Below, piece by piece: positions 1 through 46,783 of a DNA stretch of 64,000 nt. The stretch's first letter is position 1; each line of letters opens with the position of its first letter. The stretch is from NCBI RefSeq assembly GCF_013368755.1, contig NC_049565.1, forward strand, positions 1 through 64,000. Direction: 5' to 3'. Below the pieces are notes generated by a model that saw nothing but the letters and a program-made list of their open reading frames with translations, searched no databases and was not told the origin of the DNA. This DNA comes from Talaromyces rugulosus. Lineage: Eukaryota > Ascomycota > Eurotiomycetes > Eurotiales > Trichocomaceae. A program made the translations under genes and the position numbers.

Positions 1-86
1 CCTAACCCTAACCTAACCCTAACCCTAACCCTAACCCTAACCCTAACCCTAACCCTAACCCTAACCCTAACCCTAACCCTAACCCT
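1..86. repeat. Telomere, CCCTAA repeats
   Basis: About fourteen tandem CCCTAA units, with two early CCTAA variants, run from base 1 and stop abruptly at 86. The C-rich strand reads 5' to 3' into the window, so the window starts at a left chromosome end and the G-strand overhang would be on the minus strand. Confidence 0.97.
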
Positions 87-2160: not shown

Positions 2161-5100
2161 CTACATATGGCTTATGATTGAATTGGAATCCTCACTGCTC
2201 TCGACATCTACCTGCATCGTATCGTCGACCCATGAACACATCCACGTCATCTCTTCTACCAACCCACTACGCTCCTCTCCACGTTTTCCAAACTTCCGCT
2301 GAAAATGACGAATCAACGCGGCCTGGTTCTCATGGGGGACCCCTCCCCCGGGCATCTGCGCCAACCGCCGCTCCCATGCTGGCTGGATCACCTCCCGCAT
2401 CGGTCCATGCAACAACTGCGCCATGGTGTGCGCCGCCGTCTCCAAATATCGACATGCTTCTTTGGTACGCTGATATCCACCATGATCGACACGAACCCAT
2501 CGTGGACATATCCACTGCGGCGAATGGCACTGAAAACATACCGCATAATCCTCATACCCGTTCCTCCCATCTTCGCGTTGATTCCCGGTCACCTTGCGGA
2601 TGGTCTCCTCGATCCACGCCGCCGCCTGTTGGCCTTCGGCCCGGGGACATTGATACGTGAAATGCTCGCTGGGTGCCTCGTGCATCGCGCAAATCCGGCA
2701 TCGTCCCACCCACCGGTCAAAATGCTCCCGGATGGAATCCACCGTTCGCGCCTCACGCTCGATGTGTGATCGTAATTGCTCCCATGGCTCGTTGTATCCT
2801 CTCCGCCGGGCATGCGGCATTGTCACCATGGTGAATGCCTCGCTTAACTTTCGTTTCGGGGACCGCGCCGGTGCCGGGACTGGTGATCTGGCCTGGACCT
2901 GAACCCGCCTGGCCGGTGATATGGCCGGGGTCTCACTCTGCGTGGTCGGTGATGTGGCCTGCGTCTCAACCGGTATGGCTGCCGCACAACATCCATCACA
3001 CGCCGCTTCACCCTCCTCGCACTGCTGCCGCTGGTACCCATCCACCTCCCCATCCAAATATGGATCGAACACGCCTCGTCGACATGGCTGATCAATGTAC
3101 CGCTGTACCTGCTCCAATGCCCGCAATGATCCCGCATCTCGATCGGTCACTGGGTCCCCCCATCCACCACCACTACCGTCCAAAACCATCACCGCCGTGC
3201 TGCCCTGCCCATCTCGCCCGGCACGCCCACTCTCCTGGGCATAATCCAACAACGATCGGGGACGCCCAACGTGGATCACACACCGGATGTCGGGGATATC
3301 GATGCCCATGCCTAATGCACTGGTGGCCACGATGACGCCGCTGGGCGTCTGTCGGAATGTGCTCAACATCCCGGCTCGATCAATCGTGTGGGAATGGTAT
3401 GCACCGCATCCCAATGCCTCCGCGACCTGCTCCGTCTGGTGCCGGCTGTTGGCGTACACCACCACCTTGCCGGGCGAATATCGCGGGATCTCCTGTTCAA
3501 TCCACGCCATGATGGCCGCTCCCACGTCACCACGTCGGCCATGCTCCTGCGGCCGCGCAATGCGGACCACCCGATATGCAATGTTGTGACGACTGGTACG
3601 CGCGCGGATCCAATGCACGGTGCTGGGGGGGAAATACATCCGCTGGCACAATCGCTCCTCGTCCTCTCGGGGCATCGTCGCCGTCAACAACAACATGGGG
3701 GCACGGTACCGGACCAACTGCCCCAACTGCGTCATCGACTTGCGGAAATCGTACTGGTCGTGCAATGCGATGTGGCATTCATCGATCACGATCCGGTCCA
3801 ACTGGCCGGTGAACTGCTTGCGGTTTAAAAACGTGCTGAATGTTTCGTCACGTACGGCGGACTCGGGCGTGATTAACACAATCGATGCACCATCGGCGGG
3901 TTGCCGGTTGTTCCATGCGACACATTGAATGTCTAATTCCGCGCATCGACGCTGTAAATCATCTCGTAACGACACCAATGGGATGATAACGACCGTCGTG
4001 CCACCGCGGGCCATCCATGCCGGCAACATGAACAACAAACTCTTGCCACCACCGGTGGGCATCACGCCGATGACCGGGCTCTGTCCTTGGATCACGGCCT
4101 GCACAATCTGCTTCTGTGGCCCGCGAAATGCGGCGTCCGGTCCCATCATGTCGCGCAACGCCTGGTCGACATCCATGCGCTGCATCCGCTGCCACCGTTC
4201 CTCCCGGCTGCGCTGCGCCTCGTCCGTGAACCACGATGTGCTGGATGCTGGGGGCGCGCTAAATGGATCGGCATCCGGGTCGGACGGCGGCTGGCATGAT
4301 GCAAACCCTAACCATGTATGCCAATCCTGACTGCTACCACGATATCGTTCTCGCATGGACGCCATGGCGCCAAACAACTCGCGGCTCTCCCGGGCGTATA
4401 TGCCACCGGCCGTGTGTGGATCATGCCCGGCCTGACGATCGGCGGCATCGGCCAACAATTGCACCTCGTCCATGGCCTCGGGGTCGTCTCCATCATCCGC
4501 CGCAAATCGATATTTGTTGCGTAAATACCGCCGGCTGATGGCAATCGCAACCTCACGATATGATGCAATGTGCAATGATTGACCGCGCAATCCCATGGCA
4601 CTCTCGCGCTGCAATATGTGTCGTAATCGTTCGGAATTCCATTTCGCTTGGTGTGGGTGGGCGGTCCAAATATGGCTGGACACCTGGTCCCGTTGATATA
4701 TATTTCCACTGACCACCCGCTCGAACGGCTGCACCAACCACAAATACCACACTAATAACTCACCCACCTCGCGTGGTAAATATCGATGGATGATCTTAAC
4801 GTCGCCGCTCAATTGGTAACCCTTGTGGTACTGCGCGACCAATACCACCATGCCATCCTCGATAAACATATTACGGATCCCACCCATGGGACTGTTCTCG
4901 TGCCGGATGCTCAACAACTCGGGGGCCCGCGCCGGTTGACCCCATGTGAACTGGATGGCCACCAACAACTTCTCTAAAAACGCAGTGATCCGGTTCTGAT
5001 ACGCCATCCATCGCGCCGGATGAAACCCTTGCCCGTCGGCCTGGATGAATCGACGCCGCACGGCTGGGTCCTGACGGATTCGATGCCACATCCAATGCTC

Positions 5101-7146
5101 CCCATCCACGGGCCATTGCGTTCGGGTGTCCTGTAAAAAACTCCATCGTGCCTGGTTATTGCTGGGGTCGTCATACAAACGGTCCCATGGAATGGCTGGC
5201 ACGGCGTCGGACGGGCATCCTAATATGTCGTCGATCAATATCCGCCGCGCGTCCTGGACCACCGCGTGCACCATGCCACGAAACTCATTCATGGTGAACT
5301 GCCGGTCCTTATAACATAACTCGTCCCCATTCTGCCACTGTACATGGCCGGCGCTGGTCGTGTTGTAATGGATCTTCAACCCATATGTGCGCAAATCCAA
5401 CATCCATTGCGTGGGGCCTTGCGATCCGCGCACCATGAACCGATCCATCATCTGGGTCACCCACTGCAAACATCCTTTGCGGCCTGGCGAACTGGGTGGC
5501 GGCGATCCACCATATGCGCTGTCCCAATCCGTGTGGTCCATGGAACTGGGCAACTCGGCCGCATCCTCCTCCTCGGGCTCGTCACTCAATTCGACGGCTT
5601 TCTTCACCACCATGAACCGCGCGACCTTGATCACTCGCGATAAAATGGGCGGGTAATCCTCGGGCGTACGGAAACCGCCCTCACGAACCCCCAATACGGC
5701 TGCGGCACACACTAATGCGCTGTCGTACTCCCGTCGGGTGATGCGCTGGTTCAACAATTCGATGCAAAAATCCAAACACGCCCGCTCCACGGGGCTCAAT
5801 GGCGGCACGGTGATGTTGCTGGCTTCCTCCTCATTCTCCGGGGGGCGCTCAATATCAAATATGGCATCCACATCAACCGTTCTCCCCATGGCCGTCTCCT
5901 CCATCGTCTTCTCTATCCCGTCACTCCTATCATTGAAAAAATCGGGTTCGTTGCTGTCCACGGACAACGAATCAATCGACATGGTGTCTCTCTCCTCCTC
6001 CTCCTCCTCCTCCTCCTCCCCCTCCTCTTCCTCCTCTTCCTCCACCCACGGTGCCCGCGTGGCCCCGGATCGCGTGATCACCTTACCCTTGCTCACCTGG
6101 CGGGTGGGTGGAATCCGCACCGCGTCGACCAACCGCTCCCATGCCATGCGCTGTCGTCGCGTGAATCGATACGGGGGACTGGTCCACTCGTGCGGCTGCT
6201 GCGTACGCCAAAAAAACATCAACATCTCCTGCCACGGCCGCACCTGCTTCACGATTGACTCCTCATCCTGGTACGCCTCTAACGGGGTGTACCGCGTCTG
6301 ATGCTGCTCGGTCCGGATGGCTTCCAACCGCACAAACACCCCAATCTGGTGAATCACGGACAACTGGCTGATCGTGGCCAACCGCGCCATGGCCGTCCAA
6401 ATGGCGTGGGCTTCCGGCTCGATGGACGGCTGGCCGTCGATATCCGCGGGGGGTGGGCTCACACTCTGTATCAAATCGGGGATGTCGAACTCCCCCAAAT
6501 ACTTCACCCACTCGGTTCGCCGTAACCACGGGTTGGCCTCGTCGACCTGGCCGGCCTGGATCTTCCGATCCGCGGCCTCCTGCACGCTGCGCCAATGCGC
6601 CTGCATGTTCTGGATTAACGTCTCGCACGCATCACCGTCGGGGGCCACGGCTTCATCCGTCTCGGGAATAATCGCAAAATACTGCGAGTTGGCCTTGACG
6701 GGAAACAACCGCTGGCATTGAACGGGACGGCATGCCTGGTCCTGCTCGTGCTGAATCTGTTTCTGCTCCATGTGGGTGGGCTGTCCGATCTTTCGGGTCC
6801 GGGACCACTGATGATGCTTGATCCAATGCTGCCGCATGGTGGGCATGGTAGTGCATATGTATTGGCACGAATGGGAACTCAATTGACATCGATATCCATC
6901 AACGGGCGCGACCAACTGTTGGATCGCTGTGGTCCGGGTGGCCGGGATATTCAACTCGATCGGGTCATGCGCGATGTTGGGCCATGTACGAACATCATCG
7001 GCCAATGTGACGCGCATGGTGGTGGACACATAACGGTGCGCGCGACGCAAATGCGTTTCAATCTGGCTGGGCCACACGGCATGGCGACACTCCCGGCATA
7101 CCACAATGGGAAACTCCTCTAGTTGCTCGAAAAACGTGTTATACAT
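2161..7146 (-). CDS. Telomere-linked RecQ-type helicase with embedded tyrosine recombinase-like domain (TLH-A1), intact
   Basis: 1661 aa, no introns needed, the only undamaged helicase copy. Order of parts: a C2H2 finger (C17, C20, H32, H37) and a second Cys/His group (C87/C94/C98, H107/H111); a poly-Glu tract at 369-385; a recombinase-like region about 720-925 (R740-APELL box, K775, R864 in SYRE, G907-H908, Y917); and a superfamily 2 RecQ motor with motif 0 FRGPQ 1007, Walker A PTGGGKS 1030-1036, DECH 1122-1125, TAT 1155, motif V near 1271-1290 and motif [12 protein letters not shown] 1304-1313. A RecQ-type zinc cluster follows (C1355, C1376, C1383, C1386), then two C-terminal Cys/His clusters (C1483/C1486/H1495/C1500 and C1537/C1540/H1541/C1547). 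RecQ helicases unwind DNA 3'-5'; a role at chromosome ends is inferred from position. The ATG at 7146 is followed at once by sequence conserved in all copies; TATA-like sequence lies about 90-100 bases upstream. There is no RIP damage. Confidence 0.93.
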
Positions 7147-7651
7147 GATGATAATAATGAATTGCCCTGGTAAATGTGATAAATACTAATGCTATCTATA
7201 ATGGTAATGGTAATCTGTAGTATGGACAATATATGATTATATATAACCATGCCCTAATACGTCGGAACCCCTGACGATCCGTCATGGCGCGCACGCGATA
7301 TATCCTGGCCACTAGCGCCCGTCGCACCCCAACCAAAACAACCTGAAAAACCCGTCCTTTTCAATTAACCACGACAGCGGCACGATAACTTGAATATCGC
7401 TCATTCTCCGGTGACGAGCGATTTAATGGTATGAAAATAACTGGTCCAATTTTGAGGGCGATCAGGCGACAAAACCTGATTGTAGTCTACAAAAGTTCGT
7501 GATTGTAGTCTATGACACTAACCCTAGATTTAACTAGCAAAAATAACCCTAAAATAGAGTTTGTGATTGTAGTACAGTTCACTACACTCAGGTATTTTGG
7601 TTAGAGTTTGTGATTGTAGTACAGTTCACTACACTCAGGTATTTTGGTTAG
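7147..7651 (-). promoter_or_regulatory. TLH-A1 upstream region and conserved centromere-side module edge
   Basis: About 500 bases between the helicase start and the TAG that ends the module (7649-7651), repeated behind every family A copy. It holds TATA-like sequence near 7231-7245, a 7-bp stem ATCGCTC/GAGCGAT (7396-7402 with 7416-7422), several GATTGTAGT motifs, and two tandem 47-bp edge units (7558-7604 and 7605-7651). Each unit contains the hairpin TGTAGTACAGTTCACTACA and ends GGTATTTTGGTTAG. It is probably both promoter and element end. Confidence 0.7.
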
Positions 7652-9383
7652 GGCCTTGCGATCCGCGCACCATGAACCAATCCATCATCTAGGTCACCCA
7701 CTGCAAACATCCTTTGCGGCCTGGCGAACTAGGTAGCGGCGATCCACCATATACGCTGTCCCAATCCGTATAGTCCATGGAACTGGGCAACTCAGCCACA
7801 TCCTCCTCCTCGGGCTCGTCACTCAATTCAACGGCTTTCTTCACCACCATGAACCGCGCGACCTTGATCACTCGCGATAAAATAGGCGAGTAATCCTCGG
7901 GCGTACGGAAACCGCCCTCACAAACCCCCAATACAGCTGCGGCACACACTAATGCGCTGTCATACTCCCATCAAATGATGCGCTGGTTCAACAATTCAAT
8001 GCAAAAATCCAAACACACCCGCTCCACAGGGCTCAATGGCGGCACAGTGATATTACTGGCTTCCTCCTCATTCTCCGGGGGGCGCTCAATATCAAATATA
8101 GCATCCACATCAACCGTTCTCCCCATAGCCGTCTCCTCCATCGTCTTCTCTATCCCGTCACTCCTATCATTGAAAAAATCGGGTTCGTTACTGTCCACGG
8201 ACAACGAATCAATCAACATGGTATCTCTCTCCTCCTCCTCCTCCTCCTCCTCCTCCCCCTCCTCTTCCTCCTCTTCCTCCACCCACGGTGCCCGCGTGGC
8301 CCCGGATCGCATGATCACCTTACCCTTGCTCACCTAGCAGATGGGTGGAATCCGCACCGCGTCAACCAACCGCTCCCATACCATACGCTGTCGTCGCATA
8401 AATCGATACAAAGGACTGGTCCACTCGTACAGCTGCTGCGTACGCCAAAAAAACATCAACATCTCCTACCACGGCCGCACCTGCTTCACAATTAACTCCT
8501 CATCCTAATACGCCTCTAACAGGGTGTACCGCGTCTAATGCTGCTCAGTCCAGATGGCTTCCAACCGCACAAACACCCCAATCTGGTGAATCACGGACAA
8601 CTGGCTGATCGTAGCCAACCACGCCATAGCCGTCCAAATGGCGTGGGCTTCCGGCTCAATAGACGGCTGGCCATCGATATCCGCGGGGGGTAGGCTCACA
8701 CTCTATATCAAATCGGGGATGTCGAACTCCCCCAAATACTTCACCCACTCGGTTCGCCGTAACCACGGGTTGGCCTCGTCGACCTGGCCAGCCTGGATCT
8801 TCCGATCCGCGGCCTCCTGCACGCTGCGCCAATGCGCCTGCATATTCTAGATTAACGTCTCGCACGCATCACCATCGGGGGCCACAGCTTCATCCGTCTC
8901 GGGAATAATCGCAAAATACTGCGAGTTGGCCTTAACAGGAAACAACCGCTGGCATTGAACGGGACAGCATGCCTAATCCTGCTCATACTGAATCTGTTTC
9001 TGCTCCATGTGGGTAGGCTGTCCAATCTTTCAGATCCAGGACCACTGATAATGCTTGATCCAATACTGCCACATAATAGGCATGGTAGTGCATATATATT
9101 AGCACGAATAGGAACTCAATTGACATCAATATCCATCAACAAACGCGACCAACTGTTGGATCACTATGGTCCGGATAGCCGGGATATTCAACTCAATCAG
9201 ATCATGCGCGATATTAGGCCATGTACAAACATCATCGGCCAATGTGACGCACATGATAGTAGACACATAACGGTGCGCGCAACGCAAATGCGTTTCAATC
9301 TAGCTAGGCCACACGGCATGGCGACACTCCCGGCATACCACAATAGGAAACTCCTCTAGTTACTCGAAAAACGTGTTATACAT
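7652..9383 (-). pseudogene. TLH-A2, 3'-truncated and lightly mutated helicase copy
   Basis: Matches TLH-A1 bases 5415-7146, the N-terminal third including the poly-Glu tract. It starts right after the TAG at 7649-7651, so everything beyond about residue 577 (recombinase domain and motor) is missing. Differences from A1 that I compared are all G-to-A on the plus strand (TGG to TAG, CCGA to CAA) and create in-frame stops. No plus-strand C-to-T was seen. Open stretches at 7689-7949 and 7971-8333 are remnants. Confidence 0.9.
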
Positions 9384-10104
9384 GATGATAATAATGAATT
9401 GCCCTGGTAAATGTGATAAATACTAATGCTATCTATAATAGTAATGGTAATCTGTAGTATGGACAATATATGATTATATATAACCATGCCCTAATACGTC
9501 AGAACCCCTGACGATCCGTCATGGCGCGCACGCGATATATCCTGGCCACTAGCGCCCGTCGCACCCCAACCAAAACAACCTGAAAAACCCGTCCTTTTCA
9601 ATTAACCACGACAGCGGCACGATAACTTGAATATCGCTCATTCTCCGGTGACGAGCGATTTAATGGTATGAAAATAACTGGTCCAATTTTGAGGGCGATC
9701 AGGCGACAAAACCTGATTGTAGTCTACAAAAGTTCGTGATTGTAGTCTATGACACTAACCCTAGATTTAACTAGCAAAAATAACCCTAAAATAGAGTTTG
9801 TGATTGTAGTACAGTTCACTACACTCAGGTATTTTGGTTAGATTTAACTAGCAAAAATAACCCTAAAATAGAGTTTGTGATTGTAGTACAGTTCACTACA
9901 CTCAGGTATTTTGGTTAGGCGACAAAACCTGATTGTAGTCTACAAAAGTTCGTGATTGTAGTCTATGACACTAACCCTAGATTTAACTAGCAAAAATAAC
10001 CCTAAAATAGAGTTTGTGATTGTAGTACAGTTCACTACACTCAGGTATTTTGGTTAGAGTTTGTGATTGTAGTACAGTTCACTACACTCAGGTATTTTGG
10101 TTAG
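9384..10104. repeat. Module edge of A2 followed by three short truncated edge copies
   Basis: After the A2 upstream region ends at TAG 9839-9841 come nested partial edges: 9842-9918 (starts ATTTAACTAGC), 9919-10057 (starts GCGACAAAACC) and 10058-10104 (the 47-bp unit). Each ends GGTATTTTGGTTAG and begins at a different point of the parent edge. The edge is almost unmutated compared with the adjoining gene: two G-to-A changes in the first 420 bases. Confidence 0.88.
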
Positions 10105-11618: not shown

Positions 11619-14600
11619 GCCTATGCCTACAAACCTCTACTTGACCGTCATACAGGCCAATGCCTATAAACCTCTACTTAACTATCATACGGGCATTTTA
11701 TACTTATGGAACCTCCTCTATTTCTATATTATTATAGTATATATATCTACATATAGCTTATAATTGAATTAGAATCCTTACTACTCTCAACATCTACCTG
11801 CATCATATCATCAACCCATGAACACATCCACATCATCTCTTCTACTAACTCATTACGCTCCTCTCCATGTTTTCCAAACTTCCACTGAAAATGACAAATC
11901 AACGCGGCCTAGTTCTCATAAGGGACCCCTCCCCCAGGCATCTGCGTCAACCGCCGCTCCCATGCTGGCTGGATCACTTCCTGCATCAGTCCATACAACA
12001 ACTACGCTATGGTGTGCGCCACTGTCTCCAAATATCAACATGCTTCTTTGGTACGCTGATATCCACTATGATCGACATGAACCTATTATAGATATATCCA
12101 CTGTGGCGAATGGTACTGAAAATATACCGCATAATCCTTATACCCGTTCCTCCCATCTTTGCGTTGATTCCCGGTCACCTTGCGGATGGTCTCCTCGATC
12201 CACGCCGCCGCCTGTTGGCCTTCGGCCTAGGGACATTGATATGTGAAATACTCGCTGGATACCTCATGCATCGCGCAAATCCGGTATTGTCCCACTTACC
12301 GGTCAAAATGCTCCTGGATAGAATCCACTGTTTATACCTCATGCTCAATGTGTGATCGTAATTGCTTCCATAGCTCATTATATCCTCTCTGCCGGGTATG
12401 CAGCATTGTCACCATAATGAATACCTTGCTTAACTTTTGTTTCAGAGACTGCGCTGGTGCTGGGACTGGTGATTTAGCCTGGACCTAAACCCGCCTAGCT
12501 GGTGATATAGTCAGGGTCTCACTCTGTGTAGTCAGTGATGTGGCCTGTATCTTAACCGATATGGCTGCTACACAATATCTATCACACGCCACTTCACCCT
12601 TCTCACACTGCTGCCACTAGTACCTATCCACCTCCCCATCCAAATATAGATCGAACACGCCTCGTTAACATAGCTAATCAATATACCACTGTACCTGCTC
12701 CAATACCCATAATAATCCCACATCTCAATCAGTCACTGGGTCCCCCTATCTACCACCATTACCGTCCAAAACCATCACCACCATACTGCCCTGCCCATCT
12801 CGCCCAGCATGCCCACTCTCCTGGGCATAATCCAACAATGATCAGAGACGCCCAACATAGATCACACACTGGATATCGGGGATATCGATGCCCATACCTA
12901 ATACACTGATGGCCACAATGATGCCGCTAGGCGTCTGTCAGAATATACTCAACATCCCGGCTCAATCAATCATATAGAAATAGTATACACCGCATCCCAA
13001 TGCCTCCACAACCTGCTCTATCTAATACCGGCTATTAACATATACCACCACCTTACCAGGCAAATATCGCAGGATCTCCTATTCAATCCACACCATAATA
13101 GCTACTCCCACATCATTATATCAGCCATACTTCTACAGCCACATAATACAGACCACCTAATATACAATATTATGACGACTAGTACACACACAGATCCAAT
13201 GCACAGTACTAAGAGAGAAATACATCTGCTGACATAATCGCTCCTTATCTTCTTAGGACATCATCGCTGTTAACAACAACATAGAGGCACAGTACCAGAC
13301 CAACTACCCCAACTGCGTCATTGACTTATAGAAATCATACTGATCATATAATATGATATGATATTTGTCAATCACAATCCAGTCTAACTGGCTAATGAAC
13401 TGCTTGTAGTTTAAAAATATACTGAATGTTTCATTATATATAATAGACTTAGGCATGATTAACACAATCAATGCACCATCAGTAGATTGCTAGTTATTCT
13501 ATACAACATATTAAATATTTAATTCTATATATTAACGCTATAAATTATCTTGTAATAACACTAATAGGATAATAACAACTATTATGCTACCACAGGCCAT
13601 CTATATTGGCAATATAAACAACAAACTCTTACTACCATTAATAGACATCACACTGATAACTAGGCTCTGTCCTTAGATCACAGCCTACACAATCTGCTTC
13701 TGTGGCCCACAAAATACAGTATCCAATCCCATCATATTGCACAACACCTGATCAATATCCATACACTATATCTGCTGCCACTATTCCTCCTAGCTACGCT
13801 ACACCTCGTCCATGAACCATGATATACTGGATGCTAAGGGCGCGCTAAATGGATCAGCATCTGGATCAGACAGTGACTGGCATGATACAAACCCTAACCA
13901 TATATACTAATCCTGACTACTACCACAATATCATTCTTGCATAGACACCATAGCGCCAAACAACTCGCAGCTCTCCCGGGCATATATACCACCGGCCGTG
14001 TGTGGATCATGCCCAGCCTAATAATCAGCGGCATCGGCCAACAATTACACCTTGTCTATAGCCTTAGAGTCGTCTCCATCATCTGCCATAAATCGATATT
14101 TGTTGCATAAATACCGCCAGCTGATAGCAATCGCAACCTTATAATATGATGCAATATACAATGATTGACCACATAATCCCATAGCACTCTCACGCTGCAA
14201 TATGTGTCGTAATCGTTCAGAATTCCATTTTGCTTAGTATAGGTGGGCGGTCTAAATATAGCTGGACACCTGGTCCTGTTAATATATATTTCTACTAACC
14301 ACCCGCTTAAACAGCTGTACCAACCATAAATACTATACTAATAACTCACCCACCTCACATAATAAATATTGATAGATGATCTTAACGTTGCTGCTCAATT
14401 GGTAACCCTTGTGGTACTGTACAACCAATACCACCATACCATCCTCAATAAACATATTACGGATCCTACCCATGGGACTGTTCTCATGCTGGATGCTCAA
14501 TAACTCAGGGACCCGCGCCGGTTGACCCCATATGAACTGGATAGCCACTAACAACTTCTCTAAAAACGTAGTGATCTAGTTCTAATACGCTATCCATCGC

Positions 14601-16714
14601 GCCAGATGAAACCCTTGCCTGTTGGCCTAGATAAATCGACGCTACACAGCTGGATTCTGATGGATTCAATGCCACATCCAATGCTCTCCATCCACAGGCC
14701 ATTGCGTTCAGATGTCCTGTAAAAAACTCTATTGTACCTGGTTATTGCTGGAATCGTCATATAAACAGTCCCATGGAATAGCTAGCACGGCATTGGACGG
14801 GCATCCTAATATATCATCGATCAATATCTGCCACGCGTCCTGGACCACCGCGTGTACTATACCATAAAACTCATTTATAGTAAACTGCTGGTCCTTATAA
14901 CATAACTTGTCTCTATTCTACCACTGTACATGGCCAGCGCTAGTCGTGTTGTAATGGATCTTCAACCCATATATACGCAAATCCAACATCCATTGCATGG
15001 GGCCTTGCAATCCGCACACCATGAACTGATCCATCATCTGGGTCATCTACTACAAACATCCTTTGCGGCCTGGCGAACTGGGTGGCAGCGATCTATTATA
15101 TGCGCTGTCCCAATCCATATGGTCTATAGAACTGGGTAACTCGGCTGTATCCTCCTCCTCAGACTTATTACTTAATTCGACGGCTTTCTTTATCACTATG
15201 AACCGTGCGACCTTGATCACTCACGATAAAATGGGCAGGTAATCCTTGGGCGTACAGAAACCGCCCTTACAAACTCCTAATACAGCTGCAGTATACACTA
15301 ATGCGCTGTCATACTCCTATTAGATAATGCGCTGGTTCAACAATTTAATATAAAAATCCAAACACACCCGCTTCACAGGGCTCAATAGCGGCACAGTAAT
15401 ATTGCTGGCTTCTTCCTCATTCTCCGGGGGACACTCAATATCAAATATGGCATCCATATCAACCATTCTCTCTATAGCCATCTCCTCCATCGTCTTTTCT
15501 ATCCCGTCACTCCTATTATTGAAAAAATCAGATTCATTACTATCTATAGACAACAAATCAATTAACATAATATCTCTCTCTTCCTCTTTCTCCTCCTCTT
15601 CCTCCTCCTCCACCCATGGTACCCACGTAGCCCCAGATCACATGATCACCTTACCCTTACTCACCTAGCAGATAGATAGAATCCACACCGTGTCGACCAA
15701 CTATTCCCATGCCATGCACTGTTATTGTGTGAATCAATACAGAGGACTAGTCCACTTATACAGCTGCTGTATACACCAAAAAAACATCAATATCTCCTAT
15801 CACAACTATACCTATTTCACGATTAACTCCTCATCCTAATACACCTCTAATAGGGTATACTACGTCTAATACTACTCAGTCCAGATAGCTTCTAACCACA
15901 TAAACACCCCAATCTAGTGAATCACAAACAACTAGCTAATCATAGCTAACCACACCATAGCCATCTAAATAGCATAGACTTCCAGCTCAATAGACGGCTA
16001 GCCATCGATATCCACAGGGGATAGGCTCACACTCTATATCAAATTAGGGATATCAAACTCCCCCAAATACTTCACCCACTCGATTCACCATAACCATAGG
16101 TTGGCCTCATCAACCTAGCCAGTCTAGATCTTCTAATCCACAGCCTCCTACATACTGCGCCAATACACCTATATATTCTAGATTAACATCTCACACACAT
16201 CACCATCAGAGGCCACAGCTTCATCCATCTCAGAAATAATCGCAAAATACTGCAAATTGGCCTTGACAGGAAACAACCGCTGGCATTAAACAGGATAGCA
16301 TGCCTGGTTCTGCTCATACTGAATCTGTTTCTGCTCCATATAGATAGGCTGTCCAATCTTTTGGATTCGGGACCACTGATGATGCTTAATCCAATGCTAC
16401 TATATGGTGAGCATGGTAGTGCATATATATTAACATGAATGGGAACTTAATTAATATTGATATCCATCAATAGACGCGATTAACTGTTAGATCACTATAG
16501 TCTAGATAGCTGGGATATTTAACTTAATCGGGTTATGCGCGATGTTAGGCCATGTATAAATATTATTAGCCAATATGACGCATATAGTGGTAGACATATA
16601 ACAGTGCGCGCGACGTAAATGCGTTTTAATCTGGCTAGGCCATATAATATGGCGACATTTTCGGCATACCACAATGGGAAACTCTTCTAGTTGCTTGAAA
16701 AATGTGTTATATAT
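11619..16714 (-). pseudogene. TLH-A4, full-length RIP-mutated helicase copy with remnant of the 37-bp repeat
   Basis: Begins within the 37-bp minisatellite (two decayed units, 11619-11700) after TAG 11616-11618, then follows A1 colinearly. The stop equivalent is near 11747 and the start equivalent near 16712-16714, where ATG has become ATA. Both C-to-T and G-to-A changes are frequent, and stops are scattered through every domain. Parts of the motor and of the upstream domains can still be read, for example the segment at 14333-14554 over the R740/K775 region. It implies at least two rounds of mutation. Confidence 0.9.
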
Positions 16715-19880: not shown

Positions 19881-20450
19881 ATAGTGGTCCCCCTAACCAG
19901 GATATAAAAACAACTCTAAAATTATACTAAAATAACCTTAAACTTTTATCACTTTTCTACTTTAAGTAATGGTTGTGGTCTTAATCAGATATAATACTTC
20001 TATACTCTAACTATCTCAAAATATAACCCTAACAATTTTTAATAACTTGTAATAACATAGCTAATCAATTAAATGTACTTAAACTGATACTATATATTAA
20101 TAGCGGCGTCATATATCCCTAGTCTAAATTTAAGCCTCTACCCTAATATAAATATAGGCGTGGGAAGTTAGTTAAATTAAAAAAAACTAACTAACTCCCT
20201 TTTGCCTAGTATAATACTAATATTTATTAACAAAATAAAATTAATAGACTAGTCAGTTGCTTTTCTATTGATGATAGCGGCATCACATATCCCTAGTCCA
20301 AATTTAAGCCTCTACCCTAATATAAATGCAGGCGTGGGGAGTCAGTTGAATTAAAAAAACCAACTAACTCCCTTTTGCCTAGCACAACGCTAACGTTTGT
20401 TAACAAAATAAAATCAACAGACTAGTTGGTTGCTTTTCCATTGATGATAG
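19881..20450. repeat. Family B module edge with two 173-174-bp terminal units
   Basis: About 220 bases of AT-rich upstream sequence, then two tandem units bounded by TAG at 20101-20103, 20275-20277 and 20448-20450. Each unit holds two inverted-repeat pairs built from AGTCAGTTG-like arms, the second pair flanking ACTAGT, and ends ATTGATGATAG. The last TAG joins a copy of the TAS. Confidence 0.88.
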
Positions 20451-21670: not shown

Positions 21671-24600
21671 AAAATACCTGGATTATGCACGTGTATTCTA
21701 TCCCACTCCATCAAACCTTCTGCCCTAACTATGTATTAACCTGGTCCGTACAGATGATGTCAATATCATCATTATGTATCTATGTCAATACTGGATCAAT
21801 ACATACATCGGGCCTGTATTTAATAACACTAAATACCATGGAGATAATAATATTGGGAAACTGGTAATCACGTCCATTTATTATATGCCATCCACTCTGT
21901 CTATTGCTTTTAAACTGCTGATATACCGCCTGGAGGACGCTGTATAGAAAATAATACAAATATGGGGCATATTTCTGCTTATTATATATCACTCAGGTCA
22001 TTGTTGTAATCTCCTGTCACACTTCATCTATATTGGCCTACCAGCAATGCTCAATCCGATGTATGAATATCTGGGGATCTACTGTGGCCATGGAACATAT
22101 AGGACATCGCTGTGTCCATGCCGTTAACTGCCATTCCAATGCATTGACCTCAATCACCGCCTGCGCGTGTATGGACTATCTTTACTAGGCTATTCACTGC
22201 TTCAACCATTCCTAGATTATCTACGCCGTCAACGCTAGCTTTGACCTTGGTTTGGATATAGATAGCTATTCTGATGCCTGGCACTGATTACATGCCACCT
22301 TGCTGGCCACACACCCCTTATGCTGATTGTATGAATCCAAATACTTATCTAATACCACCCGTCAGTATCCTGACTCCTGAAAATATCACTATATCACCTC
22401 TTTACCTTCCTGCTATCCACACTCTCACTATCCCCATCCACATCTCTAGACCATCCGCGGCACAATAATCACCGCTTCACTATCCTACCCATCCTATCCA
22501 GCACACCCACTTTCCTGACTATAATCCCACAACATACTTAGTATATTGACGTGGATCACATATCACATAGCTAGGATATTAATGCCTACTCCCAATATGT
22601 TCATCACCATGATCATAATCTTACTAGCTATCTTGCTGAATACCTGCAATACCTGCCGCTTGGCTACCTTAGCCATTTATCTATAGTATACCAACATCCC
22701 CAATGTCACTGTTAATATGTCGACATCTCCTATCAACTTGTGGTAAATGATTACCTTCTCTTTCTAAAGATGCCATTAGGCCTTCTGCTGTTAAATAAAT
22801 ACTATCTATGCTGCTTTATCCGGCTTTATTGGCTCTATACAGTATGTAATGTTTGTTTATATTATATATAGGCTGCAGTATTATTATACTACTATGGATG
22901 TTAACTGCAATATCTGCAACAACCAGGCCTTATTAATCATCAGTAATATCACTGTCAACATGATCACAGAGATGTCTATAGTTATTAACTAGAACAACTT
23001 CTATATTTTAGATTAAAAATCCGCCCAGCTGTTTAATATCATGTGGCATTTATTGATCATAATCCAGTTTAATTAGTTCCAGTCCTGCAATCGACCTAAA
23101 TATGATTAAAATTTTTTGTTGATGGCTGACTCAGGCGTTACCAACATAATATGTGTGGTCTTGGGTGGTTGATAGAAATTCTATGATATATATAATATCT
23201 TAGCCTACTTGCACTCCTGCTGTATGTCCTGCCGCAATGATACTATAGATATTACTATAATCAATGTACTGGCCTGCTTCTATACTACCAGCATTATGAA
23301 TATCATGCTCTTGCCCCTGCCGGTGCCTATTACCACTAATATCCACAGCACGCCGCTCATGATGGCCTCAATAGCGGCCGTCTATATGCCCTGAAACTGT
23401 GCTATAGGTCCTTTAATACAGGTTAATAATAGCTGAATAGCTGCCTGCCACATTACCTGCTAATAAGCCACCTGCCGTGTCTGGTTCTGCTCAATAACCC
23501 GCCATCCACACTTCCCCCTAGCTCCCCGCGTTAATAGGAATCCTAAAAACCAGTATCATTACTTACTAGCCTGCCGGAACTACTCCTACATTACTACTAA
23601 CATCCTAACTGCTTAATGCATCTCCTGGGCATATATCCCCTTGGCAATGTGACTGCCATGCCCGGCCTGCATATCAATTACTACGTCCTTTGCCGTCTAC
23701 CAACATCTATTTTTATTCTTGGTGGCTTCTTCCTTGTTATCGTCGACCTCAAACCCGGCTGTGGACCCTAAATATCGCCGCGTAATCGTAATCATGATCT
23801 GCTAGTATATGCTGATATTTAACCACTTCTTTATACTTATCTCACTCTCCTGTTGTATGGCCTGTTTCATGCAGTTTGATGTCTATATCTAGCTATCCAC
23901 CTCCTGCGGTGGCTATATGAACCTACTTTGCTCAGGATGCCCGTACACTATGGTCTTAATATACTGCTAGAATAGTATAACTAACCACTAGAAATATATA
24001 AATAACTTGCCTACCAGCCGCGGCATATATCAATAAATAATCTTTAGCTGTCCACTAATACTATACCCCTTATAATATAACACTATAAACAATATCAACC
24101 TTTTCTTAATAAATTGATTATGGATGCCGCCAAACTCAGTATTCTGATATTAGATACTTAATACCTCAGGTCCCTACCCAGGGCCACTGCCTATCTAATG
24201 CTTTAATACCAATATCTATTCCTTACTCTATCTAATAGCCTATATCTACTGCTGTACCCACCTCTCTCACTATTACCCGTCCGACTAAATCCATTCCTAG
24301 TGCAATTAGAGGGTGTTCTAAATCTAGTAATATAACCATCACTAGTTATCCAACACCCACTGATTATAGGGATCCTGGGCGTAATACCATTAGGGCTAGT
24401 CCTTGGCCATGTTATCCTCTATAGTATCCTATACAATAGGGGGTAACTATTTAGCCTCTTCTAGCATCAACAACAATACCTTCTATATTAAATACTCTCA
24501 TATCTAGTTGACCAACCCATACATTATTTCCTAGAACTGATCTATAGTGAACTGGTAATACTGGTACGTGATCTAGTCGTTCTGCCACGCTACTAACCTA

Positions 24601-26100
24601 TTGGTAGTGGTGTTATACTGGATCTTCAATCTGTATATCTGGGCATCTAATATCCACTTTATTGATATGGCCTCTATAGTGGTCATGAACTGCATCATCA
24701 TGGCCCATAATGGGTTTGAACAATCCTTGGTCTCAGCTGTCTCTTCCTATATCTGCTGAGCCACCAACATCTATGTAATCTTGATCATCCCAGATAATTA
24801 GAAGATGAATATCAATGTACTCTCCTATCTATCTTATTTCTTGATATCTATGACAGCCAATCTACTGATAATGTCACTATGGTATTCATATTTGGCTTGG
24901 CTATCTAATTAATGATTTAATATACTGATACACTACCATAATATAGCCTGATCCGCAGGATTTAATAGTTAATTGACTGGGTCCTGTATCTTTTTAATTA
25001 GGTCCTTACTGACTATAGACTCGTCATCTTTCTCTATAATAGCCTCAATTATCTGCTCTATAGCTGTCTATTGGTCTGTTATTAACTAAAACTAGATGAT
25101 CTGCTACTGTATATTCTATATAATATATTAAATTATATACTGCCACATGTCTTGATATTTTACTATAGTGCTAGGGTCTATTTGCGCTTAGAATAGGGCA
25201 TTAGATATCTAGTCTATCTGTTTCTAATGTATCTTATACTAACTGAATATATTTAACTATGTTAATATAATCCGCTAGGCCACCATAACAATCTAGGCGA
25301 ATCATTCTCTGATCTTAGCTAACACTAGTTTCTTCTTGGGATTTGGCTAGTCTAATAATATCTACAATATCCTTTAGTGCTTGTCTAATAAATGTATGGC
25401 CTATTCTATATATTTTATTTATGGATTTATCTCGCGTAGCTTATAGGCTTAGATGTGTGTCTTCTTAGCTTTTTTGATCTGTTATTTGTATTATATAATT
25501 ATCTGCTTCATGGCTTGCTCAGCTATATTCTATAGGGGCTACTTGCTAGACTGTATAGAGACTGGGTTATTGACAGTATTAATATTAATAATAAACCGCT
25601 AGGACCTGGGTCTGTAGCGTATAAATTGCTGACTATAGATGACCTGCTATGGATAATTAGGTTTAAGGGCATAGATCATATATTTATAGGATTGACTGTA
25701 TATTTAGGAATTCTTTTATATATATTGGGTACAATAATGCTGCTAGATCTAGGTGACCGTCTTGACCACTAAATGGCACCCAAAATAACAATATTGGTAT
25801 ATGGGATATTAGGGATTATCTAATAACACAATGTGTGCAATAGGCTTATAGGGAATAGTGATATAAGTAGCTTATTGCATATATTCAGAGTACTAGTTAT
25901 AATACTTATGGAATAATAATATATATCAGCTATAGCGCTTAGTCTAATATGCAGATTAATGTAAATATTCATCTAATTAACCATCTAATACCACCTGGTG
26001 ACATAAACAATAAATTATAACCTAATATTTAGGCTCGTACTGCAATATCTATGTAATATTCAGCATTACCATGTTTCTATAAATATATTGAATAATGGAT
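21671..26100 (-). pseudogene. TLH-B2, most complete copy of the paralogous helicase, RIP-mutated
   Basis: Read on the minus strand from about 26100 to about 21700. Recognisable parts: the N-terminal region; a segment near 24031-24180 matching the R740-K775 region of TLH-A (a YYKGY-like Lys motif); near 23740-23790 the LNISIY..IMITITRRYL segment; near 23615-23690 the QAGHGSHIAKGIYAQE box; Walker A near 23300; and motif VI near 22510. A C-terminal C-x2-C...H...C cluster lies near 22040-22100. Stops occur throughout. The helicase part is interrupted enough that exact ends cannot be fixed. Confidence 0.78.
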
Positions 26101-27830: not shown

Positions 27831-30800
27831 CTATATATAGCTTATAATTAAATTGGAATCCTTACTGCTCTTAACATCTATCTACATTATATTATCAACC
27901 TATGAATATATCCATATCATTTTTTCTATTAATCCACTACACTCCTCTCTACGTTTTCTAAACTTCCACTGAAAATGATGAATCAACATGGCCTAGTTCT
28001 TATAGAAGACCTTTCTTCTAGATATCTGCGCCAACCGCCGCTTTTATGCTGGCTAGATCACCTCCTACATCAGTCTATACAATAACTGCGCTATGGTGTG
28101 CACTGCTATCTCTAAATATCAACATGCTTCTTTAGTACACTGATATCCACTATAATCAATATGAATCTATTATGGATATATCCACTGCGGCAAATAGCAC
28201 TGAAAATATACTGTATAATCTTTATATCTATTCCTTCCATCTTCATGTTGATTCTTGGTTACCTTATAGATAGTCTTCTTAATCTACACCACCGCCTGTT
28301 GGCCTTCAGCCCAGGGATATTGATACGTGAAATACTCATTAGATGCCTTGTACATCATATAAATCTAGTATTATCCCACCCACCAGTCAAAATGCTTCTA
28401 GATAGAATCCACCATTCACGTCTCACGCTTGATATATAATCATAATTACTCCTATAACTTGTTATATCCTTTCTATTAGACATACAGCATTATCACTATA
28501 ATAAATGCCTTATTTAACTTTTATTTCAGGGACTGTATCGATACCAAGACTGGTGATCTAGCCTAGACCTAAACCCACCTAGCTAGTGATATAGCCAGGG
28601 TCTCACTCTGTATAGTCGGTGATATAGCCTGTGTCTTAACTGGTATAGCTGTTATATAATATCTATCACATACTGTTTCACTTTCCTCGCACTATTACCA
28701 CTGGTACCCATCTATCTCCCTATCTAAATATAGATTAAACACGCCTCATCGATATAGCTGATTAATATACCACTATATCTACTCTAATATCTGCAATGAT
28801 CCCATATCTTAATTAATTACTAGGTCCCTCTATCCATTACTACTACTGTCCAAAACCATCACTGCTGTGCTGTCCTACCTATCTCGCCCAGCACACCTAC
28901 TCTCCTAGGCATAATCCAATAATAATCAGGGACGCCCAACATAGATCATATATTAAATGTCAAGGATATTGATACCTATACCTAATATACTAGTAGCCAT
29001 AATAACGCCACTAGGCGTCTATTGGAATATGCTCAATATCCTGGCTTAATTAATTATATAAAAATGGTATATACTACATCCTAATACTTCCACAACCTGC
29101 TCTATCTAGTGCCAGCTGTTGGTATACACTACTACCTTGCCAGACAAATATTATAGGATCTCCTATTTAATCCATACTATGATAGCTGCTCCCATGTTAC
29201 TATATCAGCTATGCTCCTACAGCCGCGTAATATGGACTATCTAATATATAATATTATGACAACTAATACACGCGCGGATCCAATATACAGTGCTAGAAGG
29301 GAAATATATTTGCTAGTACAATTGCTCTTTATTCTCTTAGGGCATCATTACCATCAACAACAACATAGAGGTATAATACTGGACCAACTGCCCTAACTAT
29401 ATTATTGACTTATAGAAATTATATTGGTTGTATAATATAATATAGTATTCATTAATTATAATCTAGTCTAACTAGCTAATAAACTACTTACAGTTTAAAA
29501 ATATGTTAAATATTTTATTATATACAGCAGACTTAGATGTAATTAATATAATTGATACACTATCAATAGGTTATTAGTTGTTCTATGCGATATATTGAAT
29601 ATCTAATTCTGTGTATTAATGCTGTAAATCATCTTGTAATAATATTAATAGAATAATAATAACTATTATGCTACTACAGGCTATTTATGCTGGTAATATA
29701 AATAATAAACTTTTACCACCACCAGTAGGTATTACGCTAATGACTGGGCTCTATCCTTAGATCACAGCCTGTACAATCTGCTTCTATAGCCCATGAAATG
29801 CGGTGTTTAGTTTTATCATGTTATGTAATGTCTAATCAACATCTATATGCTATATCTGCTGCTATTATTCCTTCTAGCTGTGCTGCGTCTTGTCTGTGAA
29901 TCACAATATGTTGGATACTGGGGGTGTGTTAAATAGATTGGTATCCAGGTCGAACAGCAGCTGGCATGATATAAACCTTAACCATATATGTCAATCCTGA
30001 CTGCTATTATGATATTGTTCTTGTATAGACGCTATAGCGCCAAATAACTTGTAGCTTTCCTGGATGTATATGCCACTGGCTATATATAGATTATACCCAG
30101 TCTGATAATCAGTGGTATTGGCCAATAATTGTATCTTATCTATGGCCTTGGGATCATCTCTATTATCTACCGCAAATCGATATTTGTTATGTAAATACTG
30201 CCAACTAATGACAATTATAACCTTATGATATGATATAATGTGTAATAATTGACTATATAATTCCATAGCACTCTTACGCTGCAATATATATTGTAATCGT
30301 TCAGAATTCCATTTCGCTTGGTATAGGTAGGTGGTCTAAATATAGCTGGACACCTGGTCCCGTTGATATATATTTCCACTGACCACCCACTTGAATGGCT
30401 GCACCAACTATAAATACTATACTAATAACTCACCCATCTCATATGATAAATATCAATAGATGATCTTAATGTTGCTGCTTAATTAGTAACCCTTATGGTA
30501 CTACACAACTAATACCACTATGCTATCCTTGATAAACATATTACAGATTCTATCTATAGGACTGTTCTCATGCTGGATACTCAACAATTTAGGGATTTGT
30601 ATTGATTAACCCTATATGAACTAGATAGCTACTAACAACTTCTTTAAAAATATAGTGATCTAGTTCTGATATGCTATTCATTACACTAGATAAAACTCTT
30701 ACCTGTTAGCCTGGATAAATCAATACTGTATAGCTAGATCTTAATAGATTCAATACTATATCTAATATTCTCTATCCATAGGCCATTATATTTAAATGTC

Positions 30801-32831
30801 TTGTAAAAAACTCTATTATATCTAGTTATTACTGGGGTTATCATACAAACAGTCCTATAAAATAGCTGGCATAGTATTAGATAGACATCCTAATATATTG
30901 TCAATTAATATCTGCTACACATTTTAGACCACTATATATACTATACTATAAAATTTATTCATAGTAAACTACTAGTCTTTATAACATAACTTATCTCTAT
31001 TTTGTTACTATATATAGCCAGTGCTGGTTATATTATAATAGATCTTTAATCTATATATATGCAAATCCAACATCTATTATATAGAGCTTTATAATCTGTG
31101 TATTATAAACCAATCTATTATTTAGGTCATCTACTATAAATATCCTTTACAGCCTAGTGAACTAGGTAGTGGTGATCTACTATATGCGCTATCCTAATCT
31201 ATATAGTCTATAGAACTAGGTAACTTAGCTACATCCTCCTTCTTAGGCTTGTCACTCAATTCAATGGCTTTCTTCACCATTATAAACTACGCGACCTTAA
31301 TTACTCGTGATAAAATGGGCAGGTAATCCTTGGGTATATAGAAACTGCCTTTATGAATCTCTAATACAGCTGCGGTATATACTAATACGCTGTTGTATTC
31401 CTATTAGATGATATGCTGGTTCAATAATTTAATATAAAAATCTAAATACGCCCGCTCCATGGGGCTTAATGGTAGTATAGTGATGTTGCTGGCTTCTTCC
31501 TTATTCTCTGGGGGGCGCTTAATATCAAATATGGTATCCACATCAACTGTTCTCTCTATGGCTATCTCCTCTATCGTCTTCTCTATCCTGTTATTCCTAT
31601 CATTAAAAAAATCAGGTTCGTTGCTGTCCATGGACAATGAATTAATTGACATGGTGTCTCTCTCCTTCTCTTCCTCCTCTTTTTCCTCCTCCTCCTCCTC
31701 CTCCTCCTCCTCTTCCTCTTCTTCCTCCACCCATGGTGCCCGCGTGGCCCTGGATTGCGTGATCATCTTACCCTTGCTCACCTAGCAGGTGGATAGAATC
31801 TGTACCGCATTGACCAACCACTTCTATGCCATATGCTGTCGTCGCATGAATTAATATAGGAGACTAGTCCACTCATATAGCTACTATATATACTAAAAAA
31901 ATATCAATATCTTTTGTTATAGCTGCACTTGCTTCACAATTAACTCCTTATCCTAGTATATCTCTAACAGGGTATATTATATCTAATACTGTTTAGTCTA
32001 GATAGCTTTTAACTATATAAATATCCTAATCTAGTAAATTACAGATAACTGATTAATCATGGTTAACTGCGTCATGGCTGTCTAAATAGCGTAGGCTTCC
32101 AGCTTAATGAATAGCTAGCTATTGATATCTATAGAGAGTAAGCTTATACTCTATATTAAATTAAGGATATTGAACTTTTCTAAATATTTTACCTACTCAG
32201 TTCGCTATAACCACAGGTTGGCCTCGTCGATCTAGCTAGCCTGGATCTTCTGATCTGTGGTCTTCTATATACTGCGCTAATGCGCCTGCATGTTCTAGAT
32301 TAACATCTTGCATGCATCACTATCGGAGGCCATAGCTTTATCTGTCTCAGGAATAATCGCAAAATACTGCGAGTTAGCTTTAACAGGAAACAACCACTAG
32401 CATTGAATGGGATGACATGCCTAATCCTGCTTATACTGAATCTGTTTCTGCTCTATATAGGTAGGCTATCTGATTTTTTGGGTCCAGAACCACTGATAAT
32501 ACTTAATCCAATGCTACTATATAATAGGTATGGTAGTACATATATATTAGTATGAATAGGAACTCAATTAATATTGATATCTATCAACAGGCGCGACCAA
32601 CTGTTGGATTGCTATGGTCTAAGTAGCTAGGATATTTAACTTAATCAGGTTATATGCGATATTAGGCCATATACAAACATCATCAGTTAATATAATATGT
32701 ATGGTAGTGGATATATAATAGTGTACATGATATAAATATATTTTAATCTAGCTAGGCTATATAGTATAGCAATACTCCTGACATACTATAATAGGAAACT
32801 TCTCTAGTTACTTAAAAAACATATTATATAT
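27831..32831 (-). pseudogene. TLH-A5, full-length heavily RIP-mutated helicase copy
   Basis: Colinear with TLH-A1 from the stop equivalent (27831) to the start equivalent (32829-32831). Transitions occur on both strands and TA is strongly enriched. The acidic tract at about 31660-31735 is longer and reorganised relative to A1. Short remnants (28161-28439, 29991-30284, 31404-31781) align to TLH-A. Not functional. Confidence 0.88.
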
Positions 32832-36700: not shown

Positions 36701-38716
36701 ATTATTGCTAGGATCATCATATAAACAGTTCTATAGAATAGCTAGTACAGTGTTAGATAGGTATCCTAATATATCATTAATCAATATCCACCACATGTTC
36801 TAGACTACCGCGTGTATTATACCACAAAACTTATTCATAGTAAACTACTGATCCTTATAATATAACTCATCTCCATTCTGTCATTATATATAGCCAACGT
36901 TGGTTGTATTATAATAGATCTTTAATCTATATATACATAAATCCAACATTTATTATATAGGGCTTTGCGATCTATATACCATGAACTAATCTATTATCTA
37001 GATCACTCACTACAAATATCCTTTACGGCCTAATAAACTAGATAGTAGTAATCTACTATATACGCTATCCTAATCTATATAGTCTATAAAACTAGATAAC
37101 TTAGCCACATCCTTCTTCTTAAGCTTATTACTTAATTCAACGGCTTTCTTTATCACTATGAACCGCACAACCTTAATCATTTATAATAAAATAAATAGGT
37201 AATTCTTAGATATATAGAAACTGCTTTTATAAATCTTTAATATAGCTATGGTATATACTAATACATTATTATATTTCTATTAAGTGATGCACTGGTTTAA
37301 TAATTTAATATAAAAATCCAAACACGCCTACTTTACAGGGCTTAATGGCGGCATAATAATATTGCTGGTTTTTTCTTTATTCTTCGGGGGGCGCTTAATA
37401 TTAAATATAGTATCTATATTAATTGTTCTCCCTATAGCCATCTCCTTTATTGTCTTCTCTATCCCATCACTCCTATCATTAAAAAAATCGGGTTTATTGC
37501 TGTCTATAGACAATGAATCAATTAATATAGTATCTCTTTCCTCTTTTTCTTTCTTTTTTTCCTTCTTCTTCTCCTTCTCCTCCTCCTCTTTCTCTTCTTC
37601 CTCCTCTTCCTCCACCTATGGTGCCCACGTGGCCCTAGATCATGTGATTACCTTACCCTTGCTCACCTAATAGGTAGATAGAATCTGCACTATATTAACC
37701 AATCATTTCTATACTATGTACTGTCGTCGCGTAAATTAATATAGAGGACTGGTCTACTTGTGTGGCTACTGTGTATACTAAAAAAATATTAATATCTCTT
37801 ACCATAGCTGTATCTACTTCATGATTGACTCTTTATCCTGGTATACTTCTAATAGGATGTATTATATCTAATGCTATTTAGTCTAGATAGCTTCTAACTA
37901 CATAAATATCCTAATCTAGTGAATTATAGACAACTGGCTGATTATAGCTAACCGCGCTATAGCCATCTAAATAGTGTGGACTTCTGGCTTGATAGACAGC
38001 TAGCTATTGATATCTATGGGGAGTGGGCTTATACTCTATATTAAATTAGGGATGTCAAACTCCTCTAAATATTTTACCCACTCGGTTCGCTATAACCATG
38101 GATTAGCCTTATCAATCTAGCTAGCCTGGATCTTCTGATCTATGGCCTTCTATACGCTGCGCCAATACGCTTGCATATTTTAGATTAATATTTTATATAT
38201 ATCACCATCAAGGGCTATAGCTTTATCTATCTTAGGAATAATCGCAAAATACTACAAGTTGGCCTTAATAGGAAATAACCATTGGCATTGAATAGGACAG
38301 CATACCTGGTCCTACTCATACTGAATCTGTTTCTGCTTTATGTAGGTGGGCTGTCCAATCTTTCAGGTCTAGAACCACTGATAATGCTTGATCCAATGCT
38401 ACCATATAGTAGGTATAGTAGTGTATATATATTAACACAAATAGAAACTCAATTGATATTGATATCCATCAATAGACGCGACCAACTGTTGGATTACTAT
38501 AGTCTAGATAACTGGGATATTCAACTCAATCAGGTTATATATGATATTAGGCTATGTACAAATATTATTAGCTAATATGATATGTATAATAATAGATATA
38601 TAATAATGCGTGTGACGCAAATATGTTTTAATCTAGCTAGGCTATATAGTATAGCAACACTCTTAGTATATTATAATAGGAAACTTCTCTAGTTACTTAA
38701 AAAACGTGTTATATAT
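33707..38716 (-). pseudogene. TLH-A6, full-length heavily RIP-mutated helicase copy
   Basis: Colinear with TLH-A1 from stop equivalent (33707) to start equivalent (38714-38716). Very AT-rich from transitions on both strands. The poly-Glu tract (about 37530-37615) is expanded, with more AAG codons. Remnant frames at 34121, 34985, 37328 and 38282 align to TLH-A. Not functional. Confidence 0.88.
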
Positions 38717-46739: not shown

Positions 46740-46783
46740 AGATGATAAATCAACACTCGCAATGCCTAGAGAGGAGTCTTTCC

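Follow-up and report, generated by a model that had tools for sequence, protein, structure and literature searches.

The window, the whole 64,000-nucleotide stretch of Talaromyces rugulosus DNA analysed here, is the left end of contig C5 and a chromosome end, in a genome of six contigs and 35.76 Mb. It was compared with 10 kb from each of the other contig ends; one of these (C4 left) is all N, which leaves 11 readable ends including the window's own, and CCCTAA repeats open 11 of the 11. Next to the telomere at each of them lies a multicopy RecQ gene, the defining trait of a telomere-linked helicase (TLH), and TLH-A, the window's copy, is such a gene. It is transcribed toward the telomere, and the codon for residue n starts at 7146-3(n-1).

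1..84, plus strand: terminal telomere, CCCTAA repeats, read from the sequence
2161..7146, minus strand: TLH-A, telomere-linked helicase gene of 1661 aa, an uninterrupted ORF
6808..7131, minus strand: OrsD (PF12013), TLH-A residues 6-113 (Pfam, E 3.4e-22)
4282..5079, minus strand: predicted tyrosine-recombinase (YR) catalytic domain, TLH-A residues 690-955 (predicted fold and conserved residues)
3661..4116, minus strand: DEAD domain of the RecQ motor, TLH-A residues 1011-1162 (Pfam)
3208..3501, minus strand: Helicase_C domain of the RecQ motor, TLH-A residues 1216-1313 (Pfam)

The Pfam matches of TLH-A are OrsD, DEAD, Helicase_C and ResIII and no others, and the scan found no domain between OrsD and the motor. 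The RecQ-type DEAD/Helicase_C motor is present by both Pfam and PDB sequence matches. Residues 993-1388 match RecQ, BLM, RECQ5 and WRN structures, and among the PDB matches listed (60 of 168) all fall in the helicase part. There was no Pfam match in TLH-A to the RQC and HRDC domains; zinc-binding and RQC domains are likewise absent from the C. higginsianum helicase, according to PMC5576322. Just past the 3' end of the gene, at about 1680-2108, a tandem repeat of ~37 bp can be seen by eye, with self-matches at that offset.

The predicted recombinase domain

A sequence-only reading had placed a tyrosine-recombinase-like catalytic domain directly before the RecQ motor, with five catalytic residues. 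The domain ends ~55 residues ahead of DEAD, and the residues sit where they had been put, in QPARAPELL (R740), YHKGY (K775), ASYREVA (R864), QAGHDPH (H908) and GGIYARE (Y917).

4927..4929, minus strand: R740, YR box-I arginine; R in 161/161
4822..4824, minus strand: K775, between predicted beta strands 2 and 3; K in 161/161
4555..4557, minus strand: R864, HxxR arginine; R in 161/161
4423..4425, minus strand: H908, His/Trp position; H in 159/161 (one Y, one gap)
4396..4398, minus strand: Y917, presumed nucleophile; Y in 160/161 (one gap), in register with the catalytic Tyr of solved YRs

The counts come from an alignment of 161 distinct proteins, the window's own included, that are 33-100% identical to TLH-A. 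The protein searches found 310, 4 and 387 proteins, of which 120, 4 and 120 were listed and all of those listed were used. Free variation of the five residues among homologues, named beforehand as an outcome that would count against the domain, was not seen; they are invariant or nearly so. When residues of the same types are picked at random within 690-955, all fall on columns at least 98% conserved with P = 0.0022 (first, 120-row alignment). The fold evidence is independent of this estimate.

The nine-residue spacing from H to Y, which had been likened to that of XerD, is equal in Cre, lambda Int and XerD, whose sequences were checked. The other spacings of TLH-A are looser when set against these three: R-K 35 vs 23-28, K-R 89 vs 75-91 and R-H 44 vs 22-23. 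Alanine had been noted at the histidine position of HxxR, and residue 861 is indeed Ala. Over the 161 rows the six commonest letters of this column are A (86), Q (51), S (12), P (5), R (4) and H (2); the column is unconserved, and the histidine is truly missing from the signature. This position varies within the tyrosine recombinase superfamily.

Structure prediction gives the fold of a recombinase catalytic domain, and the unrelated fold that had also been named beforehand as refuting was not seen. In two models from two alignments, YR and topoisomerase-IB structures rank above unrelated ones, type IB topoisomerases being among the fold matches; the best E in Foldseek against PDB was 0.0084. 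K775, for which a beta-hairpin-like setting had been proposed, is model residue 86, between strands 77-85 and 94-100. The structure alignment of the model puts Y917 in register with the catalytic tyrosine of solved YR structures. This register was read from VIA-align, which gives the first and last aligned residue only, and it is uninformative where the alignment ends elsewhere, as for XerD 1a0p, SSV1 integrase and Flp. The tyrosine segment (model residues 221-232) has pLDDT <50. In the region tested for an N-terminal core-binding domain, some structure matches align from about model residue 13-21 (TLH-A 452-460) on, with rmsd 5.4-8 Å.

Sequence comparison was silent. Scans of Pfam, PHROGs and NCBIfam, and a domain-profile search of PDB sequences, gave no YR family match. 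In profile-profile comparison, hhalign against bacterial YRs was not significant, and the Pfam scan of TLH contained no DUF3435 or other YR domain. The hhalign match to 81 XerD sequences spanned 34 columns and was valueless. A mixed YR set was then assembled from the 22 of 30 integrase loci that passed a motif filter, XerD, Cre and lambda Int, and six more XerD loci, with four sequences of wrong or missing motif taken out; TLH scored 13.7 against it vs 15.7 for the reversed control, with R, K, H and Y roughly in register and HxxR misaligned, and this result was given no weight. Weak matches in 11 families, among them GP67 (the best, E 0.0039), Peptidase_S8 (3/13 members, 0.013) and HTH_62, a 'recombinase-like helix-turn-helix' (1 member, 0.23), were judged to be chance, as was one initiation factor from another of these searches (E 0.01).

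A Walker A motif and a DExH box are also found in 144 of the 161 proteins, so that the YR-RecQ fusion is the rule; the remainder include gene models without a helicase domain. The sources of the relatives listed include Talaromyces, Aspergillus, Alternaria, Pyrenophora, Didymella, Plenodomus, Hortaea, Cladosporium and lichen fungi, and the nearest named relative among the matches listed is Talaromyces marneffei P0002 (62%). Four intact relatives from elsewhere (P0122-P0125), found by the relic search and 38-42% identical to TLH-A, keep all five residues. P0008, an Aspergillus thermomutatus gene model, seemingly has two tandem YR-type regions and no helicase domain, and is perhaps a read-through of adjoining TLH blocks. 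P0022, recorded under the plant Tanacetum cinerariifolium, is a complete TLH with every domain and is likely fungal contamination of that assembly.

Taken together, the models and the alignment support a predicted YR catalytic domain in TLH that was missed by the sequence libraries searched. They likewise support TLH as a putative fusion enzyme of OrsD zinc finger, tyrosine recombinase and RecQ helicase. We infer that TLH may have the strand-exchange activity which the sequence-only reading had proposed.

The proximal edge and the older blocks behind it

From each readable end the sequence runs from the telomere through ~7.6 kb at ~99.2% identity or more to an abrupt edge. TLH-A residues 440-960, the YR region, are 100% identical at 11/11 readable ends, and the full coding sequence is identical in six of the 11, the window's counted. 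Small indels break the frame at C2 right and C4 right as assembled, and the exact 60-nt start of TLH-A was not found at either end of C1 or at C6 right. A slash marks the junction in what follows.

7457..7651, plus strand: attachment-site-like proximal edge with TGATTGTAGT motifs, inverted repeats and a 47-bp tandem unit, read from the sequence
7564..7590, plus strand: inverted repeat TGATTGTAGT-ACAGTTC-ACTACACTCA, copy 1; copy 2 at 7611-7637
7593..7604, plus strand: fixed element edge TATTTTGGTTAG/, common to 11/11 readable ends

The arms of the inverted repeat are 10 bp long, with one mismatch, and enclose a spacer of 7 bp. The edge reads ...TGATTGTAGTACAGTTCACTACACTCAGGTATTTTGGTTAG/ and carries 1 to 8 copies of the 47-bp unit; in the window a second edge lies one further unit along, at 7651. 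This unit is seen at 7557-10104 and at 7551-7907 of locus L126. With its tandem copies numbering up to 8 (at C1 left), it behaves as would a variable-number repeat arising at the edge of the element. Past the edge there are eight different flanks among the 11 ends; the pairs C1 right and C5 left, C3 right and C5 right, and C3 left and C6 left each have a flank in common. The exact cut point is uncertain by the 1-3 bases common to donor and acceptor.

The inner 22-mer of the inverted repeat has 82 exact matches genome-wide and 14 with 1-3 mismatches, and the reversed-pattern control has 0. Of these sites 95/96 lie within ~85 kb of a contig end and the other at 160 kb; all 96 have the same orientation relative to the nearer telomere, many of them sharing descent and so not being independent. 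Single-strand DNA folding gives the edge region a modest gain in stability over shuffled sequence (z -1.5 to -4.0 in five pieces), and 7457-7605 folds with z -3.95 on the minus strand and -2.84 on the plus strand.

Further in lie older blocks and a second family.

7652..9841, minus strand: older TLH-A block, telomere side cut off (starts at the equivalent of 5414), ends at the same edge
11750..16714, minus strand: decayed TLH-A relic (73% across the entire protein)
20353..20450, plus strand: TLH-B edge ...GGTTGCTTTTCCATTGATGATAG/, arms AACCAACTA and TAGTTGGTT; further edges at 20277 and 26494
22272..24728, minus strand: decayed TLH-B relic (28% identical to TLH-A), YR and RecQ regions both present
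27834..32831, minus strand: decayed TLH-A relic (57%)
33710..38716, minus strand: decayed TLH-A relic (55%)

The mapped flanks are older TLH blocks that start at some inner point and all end at the same edge. They are nested inward, increasingly decayed and with more stops, 21 of them in the YR part (13853-15415) of the 11750..16714 relic alone. The TA/AT ratio, 0.32 for the intact gene, climbs to 1.12 in the TLH-A relic that lies innermost. Repeat-induced point mutation is established for ascomycetes, and the rising stops and TA/AT ratio point to its action here. The 22-mer core of the edge is exact at 17281-17302 and 33344-33412, beside TLH relics only 57-73% identical, so that edges seem spared from decay or re-made. 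By eye, two adjacent long ORFs in the subtelomere (1331 and 410 aa, 42744-48016) look like Gypsy-type retrotransposon pol and gag, and a 465-aa ORF at 55292-56689 resembles a hAT-type transposase.

Nineteen distinct flanks follow exact AGGTATTTTGGTTAG copies in the window and the 10 kb of ten other ends, edges of changed sequence being outside this count. For ten distinct acceptors the position could be fixed to a single base: 2032 (within a tandem repeat, the coordinate being one of several), 3670, 4481, 5414, 6285, 6779, 7456, 7465, 7527 and 7557. The intact element contains no match to four of the flanks. The C1 left flank AATAAG... was left out because it aligned only from base 14, a straight extension putting C before the junction; the others repeat mapped positions. 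G precedes the junction in 10/10 acceptors (background 0.218, P 2.4e-7), with a purine before it in all ten. Four of the ten fall within the final 150 bp, next to the repeats (P 3e-5 for uniform, independent sites). At least 2 bp are common to acceptor and donor edge in 10/10 (background 0.111), a figure that depends on the donor continuing as GG; the preceding-G rule holds without that assumption. Telomerase healing of broken ends was rejected as the source of the edges, since in this orientation the junction would then show CCCTAA instead of TTAGGG. A loxP-like crossover inside the 7-bp spacer was rejected too, since the junctions fall 14 bp beyond the inverted repeat.

TLH-B was found in this genome as relics only, 25-34% identical to TLH-A. 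Its edge, with a 173-bp tandem unit, differs from that of TLH-A and is equally fixed. TLH-B edges lie in 20180-20450, 26397-26494 and about 59030-59140. In the variant near 59,030-59,140 both arms have changed together, to ATGCCC and GGGCAT from AACCAACTA and TAGTTGGTT, a paired change that hints at selection on pairing or symmetry. As single strands the TLH-B edges fold with z -1.4 to -2.3. The edge pattern has 3 matches in the window and 22 in the genome, 20 of the latter being no more than 95 kb from a contig end and sharing one orientation relative to the nearer telomere; the two interior matches are C6:822667 (2 mismatches) and C2:4922217 (3 mismatches). The acceptor at 26494, GCTGG/GATCAC, was mapped at base 1 and obeys the purine-G rule. 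That at 20450 was placed by eye only, and 20277 is followed by the element's own unit.

Mechanism and comparison with known systems

RecQ-like helicase genes at fungal telomeres have been known since the 1990s, and a 1998 paper on U. maydis is said to be among the early work on them; we know of no settled reason for their presence there. A conserved hidden recombinase would give TLH a candidate DNA-breaking activity and a defined DNA site to test it on. The homogenisation and rebuilding of fungal chromosome ends would become directly testable, and the tyrosine-recombinase superfamily would gain a motor-fused member.

We lean toward the reading that TLH edges are made by the element's own YR-helicase, and that these are mobile elements of chromosome ends whose copying is completed by break-induced replication. 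Its basis is the predicted YR fold, the near-invariant R-K-R-H-Y, the fusion in many ascomycete proteins and the fixed edge at every readable end. TLH would act on the terminal element that encodes it: it would bind the inverted repeats of the proximal edge, and Y917 would attack the strand at ...TAG/ to give a 3'-phosphotyrosine. In tyrosine recombinases the enzyme becomes attached to the 3' side of the strand that it cuts, as would suit a constant 3' terminus ...TAG linked to 5' acceptor sequence that varies. The held end could be passed to a chromosome end that has eroded or broken, at an (A/G)G/ site. The RecQ motor may open paired DNA or drive branch migration before resolution. Break-induced replication would complete the copying of the element, and the recipient chromosome would gain a new terminal element and telomere. 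More tentatively, and at somewhat less than an even chance, TLH elements may be a new class of mobile element at chromosome ends, in which a recombinase-helicase cuts the fixed ...TAG/ behind inverted repeats and joins the whole element and telomere onto purine-G sites of eroded ends, renewing and homogenising the ends while inner copies decay.

The main rival, which we consider rather unlikely, keeps the YR catalytic and assigns it to chromosome-end resolution, like Xer/FtsK or a topoisomerase IB acting on joint molecules or linked telomeres, the edges arising from microhomology-mediated break-induced replication in telomere failure. A motor-YR partnership is known in FtsK-XerCD, and both the type IB topoisomerases among the fold matches and the base pairs shared by all ten acceptors with a donor taken to continue as GG speak for it. 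Subtelomere capture with truncated tandem arrays after telomere failure is described for Pyricularia (PMC8381367). Break-induced replication alone, however, leaves the constant donor point unexplained. The diverged TLH-B also has one fixed edge ending TAG/ behind inverted repeats, and a fixed donor point in two families argues against such an origin. Moreover, the edge reads TTAG(GG), opposite in orientation to the terminal CCCTAA and unlike a telomere vestige.

It is quite improbable that the domain is catalytically inactive and only a DNA-binding fold derived from a YR, as in Ndc10 or SroF, holding TLH at subtelomeric repeats for helicase work, since dead copies would be expected to lose the five catalytic positions, which, tyrosine included, are kept in 159-161 of 161 proteins. 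A chance likeness in a domain of another fold is scarcely credible: the silent libraries, the non-significant hhalign result and the modest Foldseek E in PDB would suit it, but both models favour YR/topoisomerase-IB structures, the tyrosine is in register and R740, K775, R864, H908 and Y917 are conserved.

The mobile elements that we favour resemble subtelomeric helicase elements already described. C. higginsianum DHX_G198 and its kin are reported to have helicase and DUF3505 domains and a single orientation relative to the telomere, with full-length copies only at subtelomeres (PMC5576322), and full and truncated tlh-containing regions occur at chromosome ends of F. oxysporum (PMC12857005). 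The main texts of PMC8381367, PMC12857005 and PMC5576322 nowhere use the word 'recombinase'; that of PMC3585121 uses it once, for a sequencing kit. 'Telomere-linked helicase' and 'tyrosine recombinase' occurred together in no paper of the literature searched, and no description of a YR-RecQ fusion in telomere-linked helicases was found there in titles, the openings of abstracts or passages of PMC4522978, PMC5576322 and PMC3585121.

With XerH, XerD, Cre and lambda Int, TLH shares the predicted catalytic fold, R-K-R-H-Y and the tyrosine register; it differs in having no detectable sequence similarity, in the missing HxxR histidine and in its fusion to a RecQ helicase. Cryptons and Starship captains (DUF3435) are YR-encoding fungal elements, from which TLH differs in the lack of a DUF3435 or other YR Pfam match, in its chromosome-end location and in having the helicase in the same chain. 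There are 25 exon-wise matches to DUF3435, the Starship captain family, on C2, C4, C5 and C6, 24 of them over the family cut-off, so that conventional fungal YRs coexist in this genome. Helitrons, whose RepHel is an HUH nuclease fused to a Pif1-type helicase, offer an analogy only: a strand-cutting domain is fused to a helicase, and a repeat able to form a hairpin lies immediately within one fixed terminus. TLH has a YR rather than HUH and RecQ rather than Pif1, and its Pfam scan gave no match to an HUH Rep domain or Pif1 helicase. TLH may also be likened to the protelomerases TelA, TelK and ResT, which are YR-superfamily enzymes acting at DNA ends.
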